This document shows, in pieces, positions 6,975 through 43,032 of a DNA stretch of 64,000 nucleotides (position 1 is the first letter of the stretch; the number at the start of each line of letters is the position of its first letter). The notes below the pieces were generated by a model, which was given only the letters and a program-made list of their open reading frames with translations, ran no database searches and was not told the origin of the DNA. The position numbers and the translations under genes are program-made. Location: NCBI RefSeq assembly GCF_032714495.1, contig NZ_JAWDKB010000005.1:62001-126000 (forward strand), in the 5' to 3' direction. The stretch is from Methanorbis rubei (GTDB lineage Archaea > Halobacteriota > Methanomicrobia > Methanomicrobiales > Methanocorpusculaceae).

Positions 6975-7351
6975 CGGTTGTTCTGGACACCAATGCTCTG
7001 ATGATGCCTGCACAGTTTGGCGTGGACCTCTTTGAAGGTCTGCGCGAACTGCTTGGAGGATGCGATGTCTTCGTACCTGCCGAGGTGGTGTACGAGCTGC
7101 GCGGTCTGATGCAGGGATGCGGGAAAAATGCGGCGGCGGCACGGTTTGGTCTGACGGTTGCCGGACGCTGCACGGTCCTTCCTCCGATTGAAGAGGACAT
7201 CCCGGTGGATGACAAAATAATCCGAACAGCAGAGATGTTTAATGCTGTTGTAGTGACCAATGATAGAAAGTTAAAAGACCGTCTGCTCAGTCTCCGCATT
7301 CCGGTTGTTGTACTCCGGTCGCGGACAAGGCTTGAGCTGATAGGAAAATGA
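6938..7351 (+). CDS. PIN-domain protein (Fcf1/VapC-like nuclease)
   Basis: About 137 residues from the ATG at 6938, which lies inside the end of the aIF2 gamma gene. The PIN acidic residues are present: [11 protein letters not shown] near the start, [19 protein letters not shown] and [12 protein letters not shown]. The family contains Mg-dependent ribonucleases; single copies next to aIF2 gamma resemble rRNA-processing Fcf1-type proteins more than toxins, and no antitoxin gene is beside it. Substrate unknown. The exact start is uncertain because of the overlap. Confidence 0.8.
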
Positions 7352-7372: not shown

Positions 7373-7945
7373 ATGTATTATAAGCTGAAATTAAACGATA
7401 AGGTCAGAGTTCCGCCGGAGCGCATGGGCGAGGATCTGAACACCGTTATTCTTGATGTTCTGCAGGAGCAGTTCGAGGGAAGCGTTGACAAGGAGATGGG
7501 TATCTTCATCGCAGTGACCGGTGTGAACCGTGTCGGCGACGGCGAGATCATCTACAGCGACGGCGGCGTGTATTATGATGTGGACTTTGAGGCAGTGACG
7601 CTTCGTCTGTCTCTGCAGGAAGTTCTCGAAGGTATTGTCGTGGAGACGACGAGCTTTGGCGCGTTCATCTCGCTTGGACCGATCGATGCAATGCTGCACA
7701 TGAGTCAGATAACCGATGAATACATCGATTATGATGAGAAGAACTCCCGGCTTGTCTGTAAGGACACCGGCAGAACGCTCGCGGTGGGCGACACGGTGCG
7801 CGCACGCGTGGTTGCTCTGTCACTGAACGAACGCGAGCCGCGTGAGTCAAAGATCGGTCTGACGATGCGTCAGCCGGGTCTTGGAACGCTTGCGTGGATT
7901 GCGGATGAGCACAACCGCGAGCAGGCTGAGAAGGAGCGGAAGTAA
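7373..7945 (+). CDS. rpoE1: RNA polymerase subunit E' (Rpb7 homologue)
   Basis: 190 residues: an N-terminal tip domain (MYYKLKLNDKVRVPPE...) and a C-terminal S1 RNA-binding domain (EGIVVETTSFGAFISLG...AMLHMSQI). With RpoF, encoded in this window at 52,783, it forms the stalk of the archaeal polymerase, helps open promoters and binds nascent RNA. A GAGGAG ribosome-binding site lies 8-12 bases before ATG. The stop overlaps the spt4 start (TAATG). Confidence 0.96.
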   Translation: MYYKLKLNDKVRVPPERMGEDLNTVILDVLQEQFEGSVDKEMGIFIAVTGVNRVGDGEIIYSDGGVYYDVDFEAVTLRLSLQEVLEGIVVETTSFGAFISLGPIDAMLHMSQITDEYIDYDEKNSRLVCKDTGRTLAVGDTVRARVVALSLNEREPRESKIGLTMRQPGLGTLAWIADEHNREQAEKERK

Positions 7946-32893: not shown

Positions 32894-35008
32894 CTACATC
32901 TGCCGCTCGGCTGCCGAGATAAGATCGCCTGCACCAAGAACAACCCTCGTTATCCCTCCCTGACTCTGGAGCAGCATCGTGTTAGGGCCAACAGCATTCC
33001 CCAACTCATCAAAAGATATCCCAGACCCCGAGAAAATACTCTGATCAGCTGAGTACCGGAGATTCTTCAGAGCCGAACCGACCGCGGCCGGCGTAGTAGA
33101 ACCTGACACACTCATCGCATCCGCAAGCATCACCACCGCCTCAAACGATCTCGCCGAAACACCGGTCATCGACTGACCCGGATGAACCTTGGAATAGAAC
33201 AGAGAAACATCCCTGATTACAGGCTTTGACTTGCCAAGCTCAGAAGACCAGATGTCTGATGCCGTGAGATAATCATAAATGAGGACGCTCTGCACAACCT
33301 TTGGATCGCCAAGTATCGTATCGCCCGCCACATACCAGACTGAAGGCAGGGAGTTTGACATGCGTGCAGCATCCAAAAGGAGCGTCAGATCATCTGCACC
33401 GTCAGGAAAACTCAGGATGACCTCACCGGGACGGGTCTGACCGGAGAAGAGAGCATCAGCCCCGGCCTTGGTCAGAGGAAGTGAATAGGAAACGGTCTCA
33501 ACCGAGTAGCCGTGCTCCTCCAGCAGGGACGCAGCAGAGGACGGCAGAACAAACCCTTCGGGCGCCAGCACCGTGATGTTCGTAGAGTGTCCATATGACT
33601 TTCTCGCATCAAGAACCGTGACCAGCTGCGCAATTCCCGCCTCTTCGTCCGGGGAAAGAGAGACCGACCAGTCGCCGGCACGGTACTCACTGCCCGACAC
33701 CGTCTGAACCGCAGGACGGTTCGTGACAACACCGCTCAGATCCCCCATAACAGCAACAACATCGCTTGGAACCGGAGAACCGGACTCAAGCGGCAGAATA
33801 CGGACCTTCGCACCATAGATACCGGAGATACCACTCGTTGCCGCTCCCGGAAGAGCAATCTGGTTCGCCGTATTGATGAACTCAGCGGCCGCGGTTGCCC
33901 CTCTGACCACCTCAACATTGCCGTAGACACCGATCACCACCTCAGACGGCGGAGGAGCATACGTATCAACCAGAACCACAGACCCTGACCGGAACTGCGC
34001 AATCTGCATCAGAATTCGTCCGCATCCGCTGATATCAAACTCATAGGATCCCGCAGCACCTTCATAGGTCTTGTCCATGTACCATCCTGAAATGTAGACC
34101 GTATTCCCGTTGCTCTGAGGCACCAGACGCGACAGCGTCATCATCGCATCATACCCTTCCGCAGCATACACCGACGCAGACGTGTCGAATCTGACAGAGT
34201 AGACATTGTAAAACGGATGAGACGAGATGTCAGAGATACGTTTTGCCGTGTAGACTCCTTCCATTCGGGAATCATTCATAGTGCCTGCATCCTCCCCTAC
34301 CCACGAAGAAACCAGAACCGGACCGGTCAGACCAAGCTCACGGGCCTTTGCAACAATCGCCGGAACATCTGACCCGCCGGTGACAATCAGAAGACCAGGC
34401 TTCTGATCAAGAAGCGACCGGAGACTTGCAAGCTCTCCCGACGGTGATGAGTAAGTGCCGGAGACCACACGTCCGCTGACAGAGTCTTCAAGCGCCTGAA
34501 TATATGCAGCCGTGTACGAGTTGTCCGGGCCAAGCACCGCGATTGCATCATGCTGACGAAGGAGCGACTTCAGCGAGGCGACCTCATAGTACGGCGGCGT
34601 GCTGAACGTGACAACTCCGTCAGGAGCAACGGTGGCATAGCCGGGGGATGCAACCGCCAGATGCACAATGTTGGATGAGCCAAGTGCCGCGTCCCATTCT
34701 TCGCTGACAGAGTCGGTCGCAGTAATGACTGCTACCATATCAGAAGGAACATCCTCTGTGCTGTTGAGGTACACGAGCGACGGACGGGTTGCCGCATCCT
34801 GCAAGAGGTATGCGGTATCAATACCGTTTCGCACCTGTGTTCCGACAACAGAGTCGGTCGGCAGAAGCACACCGATGGTTTCGCGGTGCTGGGGCGGATC
34901 AATCACCGGCGTTGGCGGTTGAACCTCGTCTCCCCCGCCTCCGGTAAGAACAGCAAATGCAACCACCAGCGTGAGGGCTATCAGGAGAAGGGCAACTACC
35001 TGTTTCAT
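32894..35008 (-). CDS. Membrane-anchored receptor with two periplasmic-binding domains
   Basis: 704 residues. An N-terminal hydrophobic segment (3-22) without a lipobox Cys, then a Gly/Pro linker, then two tandem type I periplasmic-binding (leucine-binding-like) domains: ETIGVLLPTDSVVGTQVRNGIDTAYLL starting near residue 44 and EVVIGVYGNVEVVRGATAAAEFIN near 355. It resembles branched-chain amino acid receptors, but no ABC permease or ATPase is adjacent. It lies 6 bases after the TPR gene. Ligand unknown; it might sense rather than transport. Confidence 0.75.
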   Translation of the reverse strand: MKQVVALLLIALTLVVAFAVLTGGGGDEVQPPTPVIDPPQHRETIGVLLPTDSVVGTQVRNGIDTAYLLQDAATRPSLVYLNSTEDVPSDMVAVITATDSVSEEWDAALGSSNIVHLAVASPGYATVAPDGVVTFSTPPYYEVASLKSLLRQHDAIAVLGPDNSYTAAYIQALEDSVSGRVVSGTYSSPSGELASLRSLLDQKPGLLIVTGGSDVPAIVAKARELGLTGPVLVSSWVGEDAGTMNDSRMEGVYTAKRISDISSHPFYNVYSVRFDTSASVYAAEGYDAMMTLSRLVPQSNGNTVYISGWYMDKTYEGAAGSYEFDISGCGRILMQIAQFRSGSVVLVDTYAPPPSEVVIGVYGNVEVVRGATAAAEFINTANQIALPGAATSGISGIYGAKVRILPLESGSPVPSDVVAVMGDLSGVVTNRPAVQTVSGSEYRAGDWSVSLSPDEEAGIAQLVTVLDARKSYGHSTNITVLAPEGFVLPSSAASLLEEHGYSVETVSYSLPLTKAGADALFSGQTRPGEVILSFPDGADDLTLLLDAARMSNSLPSVWYVAGDTILGDPKVVQSVLIYDYLTASDIWSSELGKSKPVIRDVSLFYSKVHPGQSMTGVSARSFEAVVMLADAMSVSGSTTPAAVGSALKNLRYSADQSIFSGSGISFDELGNAVGPNTMLLQSQGGITRVVLGAGDLISAAERQM

Positions 35009-35014
35009 ATCACA

Positions 35015-37174
35015 CTAAACCCGTAAGGAAGCAACCTCCTCAAGTGTTGCAACATTCCACACCTCAGGCGGGCATGAAGATGTTTTTTTGATCATGTACT
35101 CAGCAGCCGCAGCCTCAAGGTATCCGGGTTCCGGCAGGACAAACAGCCGGTCGATTACCGGGTCTACCGGCGCTGAAGAGACGATCTGCAAAGCGGAGCG
35201 CAGGTACTGGTAGGATTCGTTTGCAGGGTTCTGCACGACCGCACGTTTTGCGGCCAGAAGGGCATCATCATACTTTTCCATGCAGGTAAGGGCACGGGCC
35301 ATGCATCCCCATACGGCAGGGAACTGATCATTGATCTTCAGTGCAGACTCGCAGGCATCGACCGCGTCAGAGTAGAGACCTGACTCATACTCGAGCCATC
35401 CAAGCTCGGCAAAGAGGCGGGACCGTGTTTCGCGACCCGGATTTGCACGAAGAGCCGTCCTGAGCATGGAACGTGCTTCGTCTGCAAACCCTGCGGTAAG
35501 CAGTGCACGCGACGCAGCAGAGCAAACGGTGGCACGCTCGTCATCGCGGGTGGATCTGTTGGTGACGTCGGTCAGAACAACAGACCGTTTTACAGCGTCG
35601 AGGTAGGGGAGGATCATCTCAAGGACAGGGGCAATATCAGCATTGTTCTGCCAGGCGTGAGTGACCGCAGCGTTCAGTTCGCGGACGATCAAAGCTGACG
35701 GTGCGTCGGCAGCTGCAAGGAGAACTGCTTTTTCTGCAAAGGTCTCTGCATACGCTGCCGCGTCAACGCCTGCGGCCATTGCTGCTTTGAACTGAAGCTG
35801 CATAATTTCGGGCGCGGAAGAACGGCTGTACCAGTCAAGGGCACAGGATGGATCAAAACCGAAGTAGGCTGCACTGCCGCGGGTTGCGGCAACCGCAGAC
35901 TCAACCGAATCATCGAATGTTTTGAGAGAGGCTGCGTCAGGGCGACCGTCTGCGGTCAGGTGCGAGTTCATCTCTGACAGGCGCGACATTGCAGTGTCAA
36001 CGAGCTCCGAATCACCATTCTCTTCACTGATGATGAGTTCAAGGTGATGATACTCATCCTCATAGGCATGGCGTCTGCGGCTGGATGCGGCAAGTTCCAG
36101 ATACAGCCGCAGTTTGTCGGTGACCGGAAGCATTGCGGCGATGCCTGCAATGCGGGCATAGTACTCGCTCATGTCTTCGCCTAAATCCTCGCCAACTTCG
36201 CAGAGATTTTTCAGACCGATCGCGGTCTGGTATGAGGAGCCGCCGCGGGAGGCCATGAAGGCATTTTTGTATGCTTCAAACGCGTTGTCGAAGTCTCCGG
36301 AGCGGCGAAGGATGGTGCCGATCAGTTCAAACGCTGCGGTCTCGGCAGGAGTTGCAGGGAATGCAAGGGTGATATTTGCGTAGAGATCAAGAGCAGGTTC
36401 GTTGTTTCCCGAGGCATACAGCCAGTTCGCGGTGGAGAGAGCCGCATCCGGCGTCTCGCAGTCCAGCAGGGGAGAGCAGAGAGCGTCCCACTCGGTAAGA
36501 GAAGGCTGGGGCATATTGAGCCAGGTGATCATCTCTTCGCGGGTCAGGGACGAGAACCATGCTCCGGCAATGCAGACGACACAGTCATAGATGTCCTGCG
36601 GAGGAAGGGAAGGAACACCGGCACGAACAGCCGCGTACCGGTCGAGAGGGAACTCATGCCAGAACGGGCGGCGGCCGACACCGAAGTACATATCTGAGTT
36701 GCGGACTTCAGACGTGGTGATGGCACGGGTTTTGAACTGCCACCAGCTCTGCGGGTGGGCGTCACCGAATGACGCAATGATCTCTGCTGCCTGATTTGTT
36801 CCTGAGATGTAAGATCTGATCAAGGCAGTCAGGGCAAGTTTTCGGGAGGGTTCTGCATGTTCGACTGCGGATGCATACTCTGATTTCAGCCACTCTTCCA
36901 CCGGTAAAACATCGTCGGTGATATTTTCTGCGGCATGGAGAAGATCCAGCAGGACACGGCTGTCATCAGGCTGCTGAAGAATAGCAGCAAGCACTCTTGC
37001 ATGGAATCCGCCGTCAACACTCATCCGGTGTAAAAACAGATTTCGAAACACAATATTTTCGTGGACTCCGAGACGAACGTCGTCGGTAGCTGGATGAGAT
37101 AGTATCTCTTCGGCAAGAATCGTCAGATAATCCGTGTAATACTGTTGGGTCAGATTTCCCTCGCTGACTCGCAT
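35015..37174 (-). CDS. Large tetratricopeptide-repeat protein
   Basis: 719 residues, soluble and alpha-helical. TPR-type pairs are clearest near 250-340 (ALDLYANITLAFPATPAETAAFELIG, NAFEAYKNAF) and 570-660 (EARSMLRTALRANPGRETRSRLF, SDAVDACESALKINDQFPAVWG, DDALLAAKRAVVQNP). No enzymatic motif or membrane segment is visible. It is the first gene of a two-gene unit with the double-domain receptor, so it may be its cytoplasmic or assembly partner (inference). Confidence 0.75.
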   Translation of the reverse strand: MRVSEGNLTQQYYTDYLTILAEEILSHPATDDVRLGVHENIVFRNLFLHRMSVDGGFHARVLAAILQQPDDSRVLLDLLHAAENITDDVLPVEEWLKSEYASAVEHAEPSRKLALTALIRSYISGTNQAAEIIASFGDAHPQSWWQFKTRAITTSEVRNSDMYFGVGRRPFWHEFPLDRYAAVRAGVPSLPPQDIYDCVVCIAGAWFSSLTREEMITWLNMPQPSLTEWDALCSPLLDCETPDAALSTANWLYASGNNEPALDLYANITLAFPATPAETAAFELIGTILRRSGDFDNAFEAYKNAFMASRGGSSYQTAIGLKNLCEVGEDLGEDMSEYYARIAGIAAMLPVTDKLRLYLELAASSRRRHAYEDEYHHLELIISEENGDSELVDTAMSRLSEMNSHLTADGRPDAASLKTFDDSVESAVAATRGSAAYFGFDPSCALDWYSRSSAPEIMQLQFKAAMAAGVDAAAYAETFAEKAVLLAAADAPSALIVRELNAAVTHAWQNNADIAPVLEMILPYLDAVKRSVVLTDVTNRSTRDDERATVCSAASRALLTAGFADEARSMLRTALRANPGRETRSRLFAELGWLEYESGLYSDAVDACESALKINDQFPAVWGCMARALTCMEKYDDALLAAKRAVVQNPANESYQYLRSALQIVSSAPVDPVIDRLFVLPEPGYLEAAAAEYMIKKTSSCPPEVWNVATLEEVASLRV

Positions 37175-37377: not shown

Positions 37378-38397
37378 TTAAACCAGCTTGAACAGCGGGC
37401 CGTTGTGGTCTGCGACTTCGCCGCCGAGTTCCTTTAAGGCCTCGGACAGAACGATGTCAGAGAAGGCTGCCGCGGTTGCGATACCTTCCATGTTCTCAAT
37501 CGGGCCGAACATGATAAGGTCTGCACCAAGGGTCATTGCCATAATGTTACAGCCAATGTCAGGGGAAGACCATGCAATCTGGCGGATACCCTCGATACCA
37601 CCATAGTGGTGGTGGAACATCTGCTCTGCAAGGACATCCTTACCCTTGTACTGCTCGTGAATGTTCTTTCTCCAGCGTTTCAGCCAGGTCCAGGACACCG
37701 TCATGTTGTGGTATGCACCACCGGTCGGCAGACCGTGGATTGCCTTGCATGCAAGAATCTCACGGAAGGAACCGGCAGAGCCGAGACCGAGCGGAGTTGC
37801 TGCAGTGTCGAGAATCGGGCGTTTAATACCGCACTCTTCTGCAATCTGAATCATACCCTTGGACTGACCTGCAACGCCACCCTCGGAGAGAACCTTCTCA
37901 CGACCGGCAACAGAACCATCTCCCGGGTTGAACGCAAGAACAATTGCGGAGTCAACGTCGGACTCTGCAAGTGCCTGAATGTTCTCCGGTGCAATGGATC
38001 CATTGATGGAGTTGTAGATTGCACGGTCTGCAAGGCCGACTTCCGTAACGTACTTCGTTGCATGGGCAAGTGCTGCCGGTGCAGAAGAGTCCATCAGGAA
38101 TGCCGTCTTGTTGTCGATGCTGTCGAACCACTGGAAGTAAGACTCGAAAGCCTCTCCGTGCTCGGCAATGATCTGAAGGAAGAAGTGGTTTCCAGTCTCG
38201 TCCGTCAGTTCCTGACAGCGGTTCCAGAGTGCTTCTGCTTTCGCCTTGTCGATCTTACCAGTGTGGTCATCAAGAACACACTCGTGTTTGTTGTAGAAGA
38301 TGGAAGCGCCGAGAACACGCGGGTACTCTCCGGGCTGTCCACCAATTTTAGTTCCGTTAAAGTCAAAGACCTGCTGTTCCTTTTCGAACTTGAACAT
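37378..38397 (-). CDS. mtrH: Tetrahydromethanopterin S-methyltransferase subunit H
   Basis: 339 residues, cytoplasmic. MtrH moves the methyl group from methyl-tetrahydromethanopterin (or the sarcinapterin form) to the corrinoid on MtrA. It is a TIM barrel of the methyltransferase family; visible are FNGTKIGGQPGEYP, MDSSAPAALAHA, AFNPGDGS, LDTAATPLGLGSAG and GADLIMFGPIEN. It is the last gene of the mtr operon, 14 bases after the MtrA-MtrG fusion. Confidence 0.97.
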   Translation of the reverse strand: MFKFEKEQQVFDFNGTKIGGQPGEYPRVLGASIFYNKHECVLDDHTGKIDKAKAEALWNRCQELTDETGNHFFLQIIAEHGEAFESYFQWFDSIDNKTAFLMDSSAPAALAHATKYVTEVGLADRAIYNSINGSIAPENIQALAESDVDSAIVLAFNPGDGSVAGREKVLSEGGVAGQSKGMIQIAEECGIKRPILDTAATPLGLGSAGSFREILACKAIHGLPTGGAYHNMTVSWTWLKRWRKNIHEQYKGKDVLAEQMFHHHYGGIEGIRQIAWSSPDIGCNIMAMTLGADLIMFGPIENMEGIATAAAFSDIVLSEALKELGGEVADHNGPLFKLV

Positions 38398-38411: not shown

Positions 38412-39146
38412 TTACATTATCCTCGGGAGGAACATCATAATCACCATAAAGGCGATACATCCTGCTACGAGACCGTAGAGGATACCGATGTCACGGCCGA
38501 TTTTTCTTCCGACACGCATTGCGATTTCAGCATCAGTGAACTCGACCTTCTTCTCGATCGCGTCAAGACGCTTTTCAATCTCAAGGAACTGCGGGTTTGC
38601 ACTGGCAACCGTAGAGCCTGCACCGCTTCCCCCTGCATCATCAGAGATCTGAATGACGATCGGGTCAGCACCGAATGCTCCGGGATCCCTTGTTTTGAGC
38701 TCGTTAATCTTTGCAGAGATCTGACCAACGTCTTCGCTCTCCATAATGTTAACGATCTCAACCTGCTCCTGGAACCGCTTAATGTGTTCTGCCGTCAGGT
38801 TCTCAAGGAACGGAATTGCTCCGCCGGAACCGACAATCTTACCGCCCTCAACACCGTTTTTGTGCATCGCATCGATACTCTGACCACTGAGGTGACCTTT
38901 CACTTCAGTACCGCAGAGGAGAACGAAACGAATGTTCGGGTTTGAGATGATGTTGGCGACAATCTTTTCAATACCGAGGTTTTCGGTCTTACAGGATCCT
39001 GCGAGGGCAGCTCCTGCAGCACAGATTGCCGTCTCGTCGAGGTGGGAACCCATGGTGATAACAGCCACTGGGCTGTTTGCGTCACCGGTGTGGTAGTCAC
39101 CCTGGACAATTGGCCATCCGCTTGCTGGTGATTTCTTATCTGCCAT
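38412..39146 (-). CDS. MtrA-MtrG fusion: second corrinoid domain joined to subunit G
   Basis: 244 residues. Residues 1-170 are a full MtrA corrinoid domain, differing from the neighbouring MtrA at only about four positions and keeping the cobalt-ligand His85 ([10 protein letters not shown]). A Gly/Ser/Ala linker (171-183) then joins MtrG (184-244: [33 protein letters not shown], one membrane helix). No separate mtrG exists in the operon, and this frame sits exactly where mtrG is expected, between mtrF and mtrH. So subunit G here carries its own corrinoid-binding domain. The MtrA-specific membrane helix is absent from it. Confidence 0.93.
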
Positions 39147-39157
39147 TCTTCTTCACC

Positions 39158-39349
39158 TCAGGGCATCAGCACCAGTACCGGGACAAGGATCATAACAAGG
39201 GCAAGAACAAGACCTGCACCGAATCCGACAAGACCGGAGTCCATAATTGCGGACTCGACTTTGTGGGTACGGGCAAGAATCTGTCCCTTGTATCTGATGT
39301 CATCTACCATCTTATCGATGGCAGCCATTCTGATAATTGAACCTGCCAT
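39158..39349 (-). CDS. mtrF: Tetrahydromethanopterin S-methyltransferase subunit F
   Basis: 63 residues. The pattern MVDDIRYKGQILARTHKVESAI followed by one membrane helix (GLVGFGAGLVLALVMILVPV) matches MtrF, a small single-helix subunit of the sodium-pumping complex. It lies 2 bases after mtrA and 11 bases before the MtrA-MtrG fusion. Confidence 0.9.
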   Translation of the reverse strand: MAGSIIRMAAIDKMVDDIRYKGQILARTHKVESAIMDSGLVGFGAGLVLALVMILVPVLVLMP

Positions 39350-39351
39350 TT

Positions 39352-40086
39352 TTACATCACTCCATAGAAGAGAGCACCGAGGATGACGAAGGACACGATA
39401 AGACCAATCATCAGACCCTCAATTTTACCTCCGTAGAGACCGGAAGAGAATCTGGTGCGGTAACCGATGTCGGTAACCATCATCTGGATAAATTTCATGC
39501 GGGCAGTGATGAGTGCCATCTCACCGGTCAGAGGTTCTTCCTCGCCGGCTTCTGCGCCTCCGGCGGATCCGCCGTCATCATCAGAGATCTGGATGACGAT
39601 CGGGTCAGCACCGAATGCTCCCGGATCTTTTGCTTTGAGCTCGTTAATCTTTGCAGAGATCTGACCAACGTCTTCGCTCTCCATAATGTTAACGATCTCA
39701 ACCTGTTCCTGGAACCGCTTGATGTGTTCTGCCGTCAGGTTCTCAAGGAACGGAATTGCTCCGCCGGAACCGACAATCTTACCGCCCTCAACACCGTTCT
39801 TGTGCATTGCTTCGATACTCTGACCACTGAGGTGACCTTTCACTTCAGTACCGCAGAGGAGAACGAAACGAATGTTCGGATTTGAGATGATGTTGGCGAC
39901 AATCTTTTCAATACCGAGATTTTCGGTCTTACAGGATCCTGCGAGGGCAGCTCCTGCAGCGCAGATTGCCGACTCGTCAAGGTGGGAACCCATAGTGATA
40001 ACAGCCACTGGGCTGTTTGCGTCACCGGTGTGGTAGTCACCCTGGACAATTGGCCATCCGCTTGCTGGTGATTTCTTATCTGCCAT
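39352..40086 (-). CDS. mtrA: Tetrahydromethanopterin S-methyltransferase subunit A
   Basis: 244 residues from ATG 40086. The corrinoid domain fills residues 1-170, with cobalt ligand His85 in [10 protein letters not shown]; an acidic linker ([11 protein letters not shown]) and one C-terminal membrane helix (222-242) follow. The methyl group passes from MtrH to the cobalt here, then to coenzyme M through MtrE, with sodium export. Its first half kilobase is about 97 percent identical in DNA to the downstream MtrA-MtrG gene. The upstream ATG at 40095 would add three residues. Confidence 0.97.
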
Positions 40087-40091
40087 GTATC

Positions 40092-40385
40092 TCACATCCC
40101 AACAAGTAACGCGATTGCGACGAGACCGGCGATGAACAGTCCAACAGCGAGACCATACCAGAGTGAAGTGACGGTTCCTGCGTACAGGAGAGTCTTCTCA
40201 CGTCCGGGGTAGCTGTTGAGGAAGCTTCCTTCTCCGGAGAGCATTCCAACCAGATCATCTGCAATCTTTTCAAGTTCAGCAACCTGGTCAATAACCGGCT
40301 GGTAAGAGATACCTGCGGTCGTGACAATGCCTGCGATAGGGTCAGCTACGAGGCCAAATTCAGGTAATACTAATATATATCCCAT
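40092..40385 (-). CDS. mtrB: Tetrahydromethanopterin S-methyltransferase subunit B
   Basis: 97 residues. A soluble N-terminal part ([29 protein letters not shown]) is followed by one membrane helix ([20 protein letters not shown]). It is in the standard operon position between mtrC and mtrA. A GGAGGAA ribosome-binding site precedes the ATG. Its end overlaps the longest possible mtrA start. Confidence 0.96.
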
Positions 40386-40403: not shown

Positions 40404-41261
40404 TTATTCCTCCGCATCGCTGAACGGCTTTGCGTCGAGCCATGCTGCTGCATCACGCTTGGATAAGGCGAAGTATTTCTTGTAGGACACAAACCATCCG
40501 ATAAGTGCAATGACGAGAGAGATCCAGGCTGCAACGAGAGAAACGAATGCAAAGGAAATGACTGCCATAACAATCATGGAAAGGAATCCACACTCAATAG
40601 CGAGCATGTTGGTTCTGTCCTGCTTCTCGCCTGGACCAAGACAGGCATTGAAGGGGTGCTGCAGTGCGATTGCACCAAGCATGAATGAGACTGCAATGAG
40701 ACCTGCACCAATGTAGGACACATCGTAGAAGCTCACCGTGATACCGAAGATATCAAGGTTGAACGCCGTGATCTCAGAGAAGGCAACGTGGCCGGTTGCA
40801 ACAACGGTGAGACCCATAAGGGCGACACAGCCGACTGCTGCAAGTTCTGCGATACTGCGGGTCATGACCGGGATCTTCATGTTCAGGACAGAGTTAGAGA
40901 TCCATCCAAGGACGAGACCGACGATCAGAGCGATGATTAATCCTGCGATTGGTACGAGGAACACGTTGATTACAGCAAGTTTTGCTGCAAACAGCATTGC
41001 AAGAACACCAGAACCGAATGCGAGCATACCCGCGGACGGAACTCCGGTACCGATACCATAGCTGCAGAGTTTCTTGATGGTGCTGTTACCCCAGATCAGG
41101 GCGCCAACAGCTGCGATTCCGCCAAAGAATGCAAGGTAATCATATCCTGCATAAGCTCCGGCGACTGCGATGTAAAGGGAGACCAGTGCAAGGATCAGGC
41201 CCATTGCCATAACCTTGTTGTGTGGAATGCCATCGTGTGATGCTTCAACTTTTACTGACAT
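40404..41261 (-). CDS. mtrC: Tetrahydromethanopterin S-methyltransferase subunit C
   Basis: 285 residues with about seven to eight membrane helices and short loops (CLGPGEKQDRTNMLAIECGF is the most polar). MtrC, D and E form the membrane core of the sodium-translocating methyltransferase. The gene lies 10 bases after mtrD. Confidence 0.96.
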   Translation of the reverse strand: MSVKVEASHDGIPHNKVMAMGLILALVSLYIAVAGAYAGYDYLAFFGGIAAVGALIWGNSTIKKLCSYGIGTGVPSAGMLAFGSGVLAMLFAAKLAVINVFLVPIAGLIIALIVGLVLGWISNSVLNMKIPVMTRSIAELAAVGCVALMGLTVVATGHVAFSEITAFNLDIFGITVSFYDVSYIGAGLIAVSFMLGAIALQHPFNACLGPGEKQDRTNMLAIECGFLSMIVMAVISFAFVSLVAAWISLVIALIGWFVSYKKYFALSKRDAAAWLDAKPFSDAEE

Positions 41262-41271
41262 TTTTTACACC

Positions 41272-42132
41272 TCAGAGTACTGCCACCACCAGCATTGCAA
41301 CGAGTCCGCAGATACCGCTTGCACAGATTGCTGCGACGATTGCACGGGGGAAACGTTTGAACTTCGGGTCGTGCGGGCCTTCAATGGTTCCGGTAATGTT
41401 GTATGCAGAAAGTACTGCGATAACAAGGAACATACCGATTGCAAAGATGCCTGCAAGGCCTACTGCGAGAACCGGGGCGTCTTCGCCGACGATTCCGACA
41501 GCTGCGAAACTTGCGTTGTAGAAGTTCAGAAGCTGAACGTAGATGAGTGTTCCGCCAAGACCGCCGAAGAGACCGCCAATGACACCGCCAACGTAAGAGA
41601 TAAACGGAAGTCCGTGACCTTCGGTTCCCTGGGATTTATACTCAGCCTGAGAGTCACCGGTGATCGGGTCTTTTGCGACCTTACCGGATGCTGCGGGGAT
41701 ACCCATGCCGTAGACATAGGAGATGTTCACCATTAAACAGGTGACTGCCATCATTAAACCGCCGCCGATTGCACCACCGGCGAGAGCGACTCCAAAGCCT
41801 AAACTTGCTGCCCATGCTCCTCCGAACAGTCCTGCGAGACCTGCACCGGTCGCAAGCATTGCGACACCGGTTGCGATACCCGGAGACTGTCCCATTGCTG
41901 CCGGCGCACCGCCGACTGGAACGAAGTGGACACCAAATGCAATCAGTGCTGCACCAACGATGATACCAACCAGGGTCATCATCGGTACCATTGCACCGCC
42001 GGAGAAAATTCCCATGTTACCAAGGAGGTAGGCGACGCCAATGAAGACGATTGCAAGGATAATTGCGATTACGGATGCGACAGGCTGGAATGCTCCTGCA
42101 TTGCCTGCCGGTTTTGCTGCGATTGCGCTCAT
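41272..42132 (-). CDS. mtrD: Tetrahydromethanopterin S-methyltransferase subunit D
   Basis: 286 residues, a polytopic membrane protein very rich in Gly and Ala (GGAIGGGLMMAVTCLMVNISY). A polar loop (KDPITGDSQAEYKSQGTEGHGLPFI) is conserved in the family. It is part of the sodium channel core, and follows mtrE by 3 bases. Confidence 0.96.
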   Translation of the reverse strand: MSAIAAKPAGNAGAFQPVASVIAIILAIVFIGVAYLLGNMGIFSGGAMVPMMTLVGIIVGAALIAFGVHFVPVGGAPAAMGQSPGIATGVAMLATGAGLAGLFGGAWAASLGFGVALAGGAIGGGLMMAVTCLMVNISYVYGMGIPAASGKVAKDPITGDSQAEYKSQGTEGHGLPFISYVGGVIGGLFGGLGGTLIYVQLLNFYNASFAAVGIVGEDAPVLAVGLAGIFAIGMFLVIAVLSAYNITGTIEGPHDPKFKRFPRAIVAAICASGICGLVAMLVVAVL

Positions 42133-42135
42133 AAT

Positions 42136-43032
42136 TTAGGCCTCCGTAGCTGCCGCGGTGTAGGGTCCGTAGTTCTTGCGTGCCCATACCTCAACATAGC
42201 GATCGATGATCATGAAGATGAGGATGATAACAACACCTGCAACTACTGCTCCCCATCCGTTTGCGATAGGCTCAAAGAGAACGGTACGCCACAGTTCAAA
42301 GAACACAATTAAACCAAAGCAGAGACCAGATGCTGGTCCGCCGAGTTTTGCGGTGAAGAAACCGTTGTCGATAGAGCTTCTCTGACCGGCTTCTGCGTAA
42401 CGAACGATGTTACCGGATGCAGAGATTGGCACACCAGCACCGAACTTCTGGTTCTGGTACTGACGCTCCTTACCATAGTACGGGTTTCCGGTTGCAGAAC
42501 CTGCTGCACCAAGAGCGAGACCCCATACCACGCCGAGAAGCGGAAGTGCGAACGGGTGGTGAAGCACTGTTGACATCAGGTAACAAGCGGTTACCGTAGT
42601 GAAGATTGCAACGAATGCGTGACCCATGGTTACAGTCGTTACTGATTTTAAGACATCAATAAAGACCGGCTGTCCGAACTTGGAAAGACTTGCGGTTCTT
42701 CCAAGGTATGCAGTGGTAGCATAGATACCCTGCACGAAGGTTGCGAGAACTGCGCCGAAGATGATTGCCAGTACTGCATTAACATTCATCATAATGAATG
42801 CCCATGCAACACCGCAAGCAAGGGTTACCCACAGCGTGTATGCTGGGGGTTCACCGGATATTGCTTTGTTGTATATACGGTGAGTATAACCCATCTGAGG
42901 TGCAAGCTGGACCTGAGAGTTCGGGTCACCCTGTGAACCGATGTTAGACTCAGTATCCTCGGCTGCACCTGCAACCGCTGCGAGAGCTCCCGCAAGGGCA
43001 GTTACTCCAATGCCGATGATAATTTCTTGCAT
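42136..43032 (-). CDS. mtrE: Tetrahydromethanopterin S-methyltransferase subunit E
   Basis: 298 residues from ATG 43032 (MQEIIIGIGVTALAG), with about six membrane helices. The family loop DTESNIGSQGDPNSQVQLAPQMGYTHR-type region and GNPYYGKERQYQ are visible. MtrE is thought to carry the site for methyl transfer to coenzyme M. An AAGGGAGA ribosome-binding site lies 7 bases upstream. A longer in-frame reading to 43236 passes through the hairpins of the leader and is rejected. First gene of mtrEDCBAF-(A-G)-H. Confidence 0.96.
   Translation of the reverse strand: MQEIIIGIGVTALAGALAAVAGAAEDTESNIGSQGDPNSQVQLAPQMGYTHRIYNKAISGEPPAYTLWVTLACGVAWAFIMMNVNAVLAIIFGAVLATFVQGIYATTAYLGRTASLSKFGQPVFIDVLKSVTTVTMGHAFVAIFTTVTACYLMSTVLHHPFALPLLGVVWGLALGAAGSATGNPYYGKERQYQNQKFGAGVPISASGNIVRYAEAGQRSSIDNGFFTAKLGGPASGLCFGLIVFFELWRTVLFEPIANGWGAVVAGVVIILIFMIIDRYVEVWARKNYGPYTAAATEA

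Follow-up and report, generated by a model that had tools for sequence, protein, structure and literature searches.

The only MtrG of a Methanomicrobiales methyltransferase operon is fused to a second MtrA corrinoid domain

What use could the methyltransferase Mtr, whose reaction alone conserves energy in methanogens that lack cytochromes, make of a second corrinoid domain carried on its subunit G? The question is raised by a gene of 244 codons (38412-39146, minus strand) in the window analysed here, a stretch of 64,000 nucleotides from Methanorbis rubei, a member of the Methanomicrobiales. A sequence-only reading had described its product as a complete MtrA corrinoid domain, including the cobalt-ligand His85, followed by MtrG. 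Both parts are recovered within one frame: Pfam matches cover residues 4-172 for MtrA (E 7e-84) and residues 184-238 for MtrG (E 1.3e-22), and the NCBIfam equivalog models TIGR01111 (mtrA) and TIGR01149 (MtrG) both score above their cut-offs, confirming a true MtrA-MtrG fusion. The corrinoid domain (residues 1-170, 38637-39146) is joined by a linker of ~13 residues (171-183, 38598-38636) to the MtrG stalk/membrane helix (residues 184-238, 38433-38597), all on the minus strand. Translation starts at an ATG 3' of a GAGGTGA ribosome-binding site (39153-39159) that overlaps the stop codon of mtrF. The MtrG part of the fusion has no counterpart of profile positions 1 to ~8, which form part of an N-terminal segment in free MtrG; the MtrG signature and the single stalk/transmembrane helix are present by Pfam, NCBIfam and the structural model. 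TIGR01111 is a full-length mtrA model, and its use alone gives the name "subunit A", which hides the MtrG part.

The fusion lies in an intact operon, mtrE-D-C-B-A-1-F-(A-G fusion)-H, whose genes are all on the minus strand: mtrE (42136-43032, with an inferred start at MQEIII, from the open reading frame list and Pfam), mtrD (41272-42132), mtrC (40404-41261), mtrB (40092-40385), mtrA-1 (39352-40086), a free mtrF of 63 codons (39158-39349; Pfam and NCBIfam), the fusion and mtrH (37378-38397), with mtrD, mtrC, mtrB and mtrH assigned by Pfam. It sits between mtrF and mtrH, the mtrG position as the earlier reading had it, and downstream of a complete mtrA-1, which encodes a canonical MtrA that has an anchor helix of its own and is the source or partner of gene conversion. 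Directly downstream of mtrH and on the same strand are open reading frames of 719 residues (window 35015-37174) and 704 residues (window 32894-35008), the second with a signal-like start. In a profile search of this 96%-complete genome, the fusion is the sole MtrG. A free mtrG at another site was considered and rejected, as none was found, in line with the earlier statement that no free mtrG is present. MtrA domains number two only, those of mtrA-1 and the fusion.

The fusion was already known, since Wang et al. 2015 (PMC4632066) described it in the Methanomicrobiales as mtrA-2b, an "mtrA-G fusion" between mtrF and mtrH, in eight of the eight members of the order examined; Methanocorpusculum labreanum Z is named among the species analysed. 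They inferred long-lasting gene conversion that kept the MtrA domain of the fusion like mtrA-1, and a later genome-wide study (PMC6053082) reports the mtrA result again. Every defining feature of mtrA-2b that we tested was found here: the same domain order, operon place, archaeal order and gene conversion with mtrA-1. There is no difference of substance from the genes described in 2015, and the source genome is one more from that lineage, in which such a fusion is ordinary.

The two MtrA copies evolve in concert. Over their first 170 codons, mtrA-1 and the fusion share 96.9% DNA identity and differ at four amino acids, and identity collapses abruptly past codon ~170. Across 36 genomes with both copies complete, mean DNA identity is 94.9% between paralogues within a genome versus 73.9% between orthologues of different genomes; in a tree of the same set, paralogues are sisters in 29 genomes, and monophyly of the fusion domains is rejected (AU test, p-AU 1.7e-50). 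Within the genus of the source organism, some fusion domains instead cluster with one another (e.g. G042, G054, G065), so conversion was not recent there.

The fused domain retains the features of a cobalamin-binding MtrA. His85 (codon 38892-38894, minus strand), the predicted cobalt ligand, aligns to His84 of the solved MtrA chains 5laa and 8q3v (cobalt ligand: PMC4915002) and is invariant across 37 fusion domains and 36 domains of mtrA-1; in the fusion alignment the sequence of the window gene lacks its first codon, so that H84 there is His85 here. Asp17, Lys53, Thr54, Glu55, Asn56, Gly58 and Asn65 of the pocket are likewise invariant in both copies. The cobalamin-contact and base-off pocket residues tested, which are those of PMC4915002, vary only at positions 18 and 62, where the exchanges are conservative, and the fusion has the cobalt-ligand His and base-off pocket residues of the MtrA family (TIGR01111, PF04208). 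An AlphaFold2 model built on 32 fusion sequences consists of an MtrA-like fold, a low-confidence disordered segment (169-183) and a single long helix (184-242). Its first part resembles solved MtrA 5l8x (TM 0.92 to target, rmsd 1.5) and also matches 5laa, MtrA with cobalamin. The nearest solved chains by sequence are MtrA and MtrG of Methanosarcina mazei (9qtq) and Methanothermobacter marburgensis (8q3v), and no Mtr complex of the Methanomicrobiales is among the matched solved chains.

Those two complexes are, like the one encoded here, eight-subunit Na+-translocating methyltransferases with a stalk of MtrA, B, F and G, but they have one MtrA per protomer and a free MtrG. In solved Mtr complexes (PMC10998594, PMC12774963), the stalk is trimeric with all N-termini cytoplasmic, the central membrane bundle is made of MtrG helices, and a flexible linker leaves the MtrA corrinoid domain mobile. 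Because the stalk N-termini are cytoplasmic and the MtrA domain is mobile, a corrinoid domain on the N-terminus of MtrG would be on the correct side of the membrane and near the first. We infer that the fused domain most likely serves as an additional methyl carrier, attached to the stalk helix of MtrG, and would bring the corrinoid domains of the trimer from three to six. In the Na+-pumping enzyme, the fusion chain would occupy the MtrG place of the trimeric stalk, where the cytoplasmic N-terminus of MtrG, beside the stalk helix of MtrA, would hang a second mobile carrier from each protomer. Loaded with corrinoid and active, as we expect, this carrier, like MtrA-1, would collect methyl groups at MtrH and deliver them to the MtrCDE site, and gene conversion with mtrA-1 would keep the two domains interchangeable. 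The extra corrinoid sites that the sequence-only reading foresaw are thus plausible, as they fit both the architecture of Mtr and the conservation of the binding residues. We consider it probable that mtrA-2b, as the sole MtrG, replaces MtrG in the stalk and adds a second mobile corrinoid carrier to each protomer.

Conserved residues could have another cause, however, since gene conversion homogenises the second domain whether or not it is used, and by itself could keep its residues conserved. The fused domain might then be a non-catalytic passenger, or a structural cap in the cytoplasmic part of the stalk, that is intact solely through conversion. The literature we searched holds no activity data for the fused domain and no protein-level evidence from any Mtr complex of the Methanomicrobiales, and one metaproteome, in which MtrG is listed near zero, is uninformative. 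The missing start of the MtrG profile in the fusion also counts against the carrier reading. Against a passenger role stands the retention of the domain in all sampled families of the order with its cobalamin-binding residues invariant, and even the few same-genus genomes whose copies have diverged, to 82-84% DNA identity (L033, L053), have invariant pocket residues. The independent mtrA-F fusions of Methanococcales and Methanocellales (PMC4632066) point to a selected benefit, and a Methanococcus screen, as it is cited in PMC4632066, found both mtrA copies to be needed for growth and/or methanogenesis. We therefore regard a passenger or cap as unlikely, and favour a working carrier.

A second alternative makes the fusion a precursor, whose linker is cut to give an ordinary MtrG and a soluble corrinoid protein. 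The linker is predicted to be disordered, and other methanogens have soluble homologues of MtrA (PMC4915002). However, the linker residues adjoining MtrG (A180, P184 and Q185 by alignment position) never vary, as would not be expected of a free cleavable spacer, and the window gene has no usual in-frame start codon between its two parts. We know of no protease that cuts the MtrA-MtrG linker, and we consider a precursor improbable, clearly more so than a passenger. The missing start codon also means that free MtrG could not be made by ordinary internal initiation, and an internal translation start was rejected for the window gene on this ground. In 23 of 38 relatives, there is an in-frame start codon inside or just before the linker, mostly a Met near residue 163, which is inside the MtrA domain; we judge these codons uninformative about free MtrG.

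The fusion, which on our preferred reading is a stalk subunit with its own carrier, is conserved across the order. The earlier reading had suggested a search of related Methanomicrobiales: 108 of 120 genomes of the order have an MtrG match, and all 108 are in fusion-length frames, mostly of 240-300 residues, or are interrupted by a contig end or a gap. Short MtrG frames in the order were considered as unfused cases and rejected, as all are at contig ends or, in G023, at an N gap inside the domain. Eight of the 12 genomes that gave no MtrG match were searched for MtrA, of which five had none, two had fragments and one (G032) had a weaker, partial-length match; in these drafts, the mtr locus appears to be absent or broken. 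In the phylum sample of 147 genomes, every MtrG outside the order is in a short frame of 67-127 residues, and so is free. One Methanocella genome (L073, G148:C212) has two tandem MtrG matches, at 7124-7294 and 7477-7650, in frames of 106 and 67 residues, which are a duplication or an assembly error. Two near-identical mtrA domains do break many draft assemblies, but we dismiss the idea that a tandem repeat was misassembled or miscalled to give the fusion, which is found in genomes of one contig, both within the same genus and in other families (e.g. G042, G054, G001, G040) and in published complete genomes (PMC4632066).

Related fusions have been formed elsewhere. In mtrA-2a, an MtrA-MtrF fusion of Methanococcales and Methanocella, a second MtrA domain is also attached to a small stalk subunit and subject to gene conversion, but the partner is MtrF instead of MtrG, the gene is between mtrA-1 and mtrG, and its origin is independent. 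For the Methanocellales, PMC4632066 reports the mtrA-F fusion in Methanocella arvoryzae only; we see it beside mtrA-1 in three of the four sampled Methanocellales genomes, from two genera (L072, L073 and L074, in G127, G148 and G142, respectively). Likewise, in the EDCB[AF]FGH operons described for TACK archaea, Methanoliparia and ANME-1 (PMC9982363), the stalk helix that carries the corrinoid domain is not that of MtrA, but these operons encode a single corrinoid domain, on an MtrF helix. At all 46 ANME-1 and Methanoliparia loci (L102-L147), an MtrF-type helix comes after the corrinoid domain and scores 28-43 bits with an HMM of Methanomicrobiales MtrF and at most 17 with an MtrA-anchor HMM, and the adjacent frame of 62-94 residues scores 39-54 bits with the anchor HMM and at most 9 with the MtrF HMM (for example, L079, 1217-1951 and 1952-2149, plus strand; L076, 1643-2386 and 1454-1642, minus strand). 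The small neighbouring frame, the "duplicate mtrF" of PMC9982363, thus scores as a free MtrA anchor helix, and the corrinoid domain appears from these profile scores to have swapped stalk helices in ANME-1/Methanophagales and Methanoliparia. Only one MtrA was found in each of three ANME-1 genomes searched (G164, G155, G184). By eye, two TACK loci have the same arrangement: L148 of Thermoprotei archaeon B19_G17 (frames at 0 and 739) and L149 of Nezhaarchaeota WYZ-LMO8 (frames at 2455 and 3233) encode an MtrA with an MtrF-like helix at its end, which is below the listing threshold, and then a 66-77-residue MtrA-anchor-like frame (60-65 bits).

A sole corrinoid domain that is on an MtrF helix in ANME-1 and Methanoliparia makes a working domain on MtrG credible. 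We lean, by a modest degree, towards a broader picture in which the Methanomicrobiales complex would have two working corrinoid carriers per protomer on two stalk helices, with altered turnover or altered coupling of methyl transfer to Na+ transport, and in which the corrinoid domain would be a module portable among the A, F and G helices. If true, a doubled mobile cofactor carrier would bear on the coupling between methyl transfer and Na+ transport, and the Methanomicrobiales are a natural comparison for the solved single-carrier Mtr complexes.
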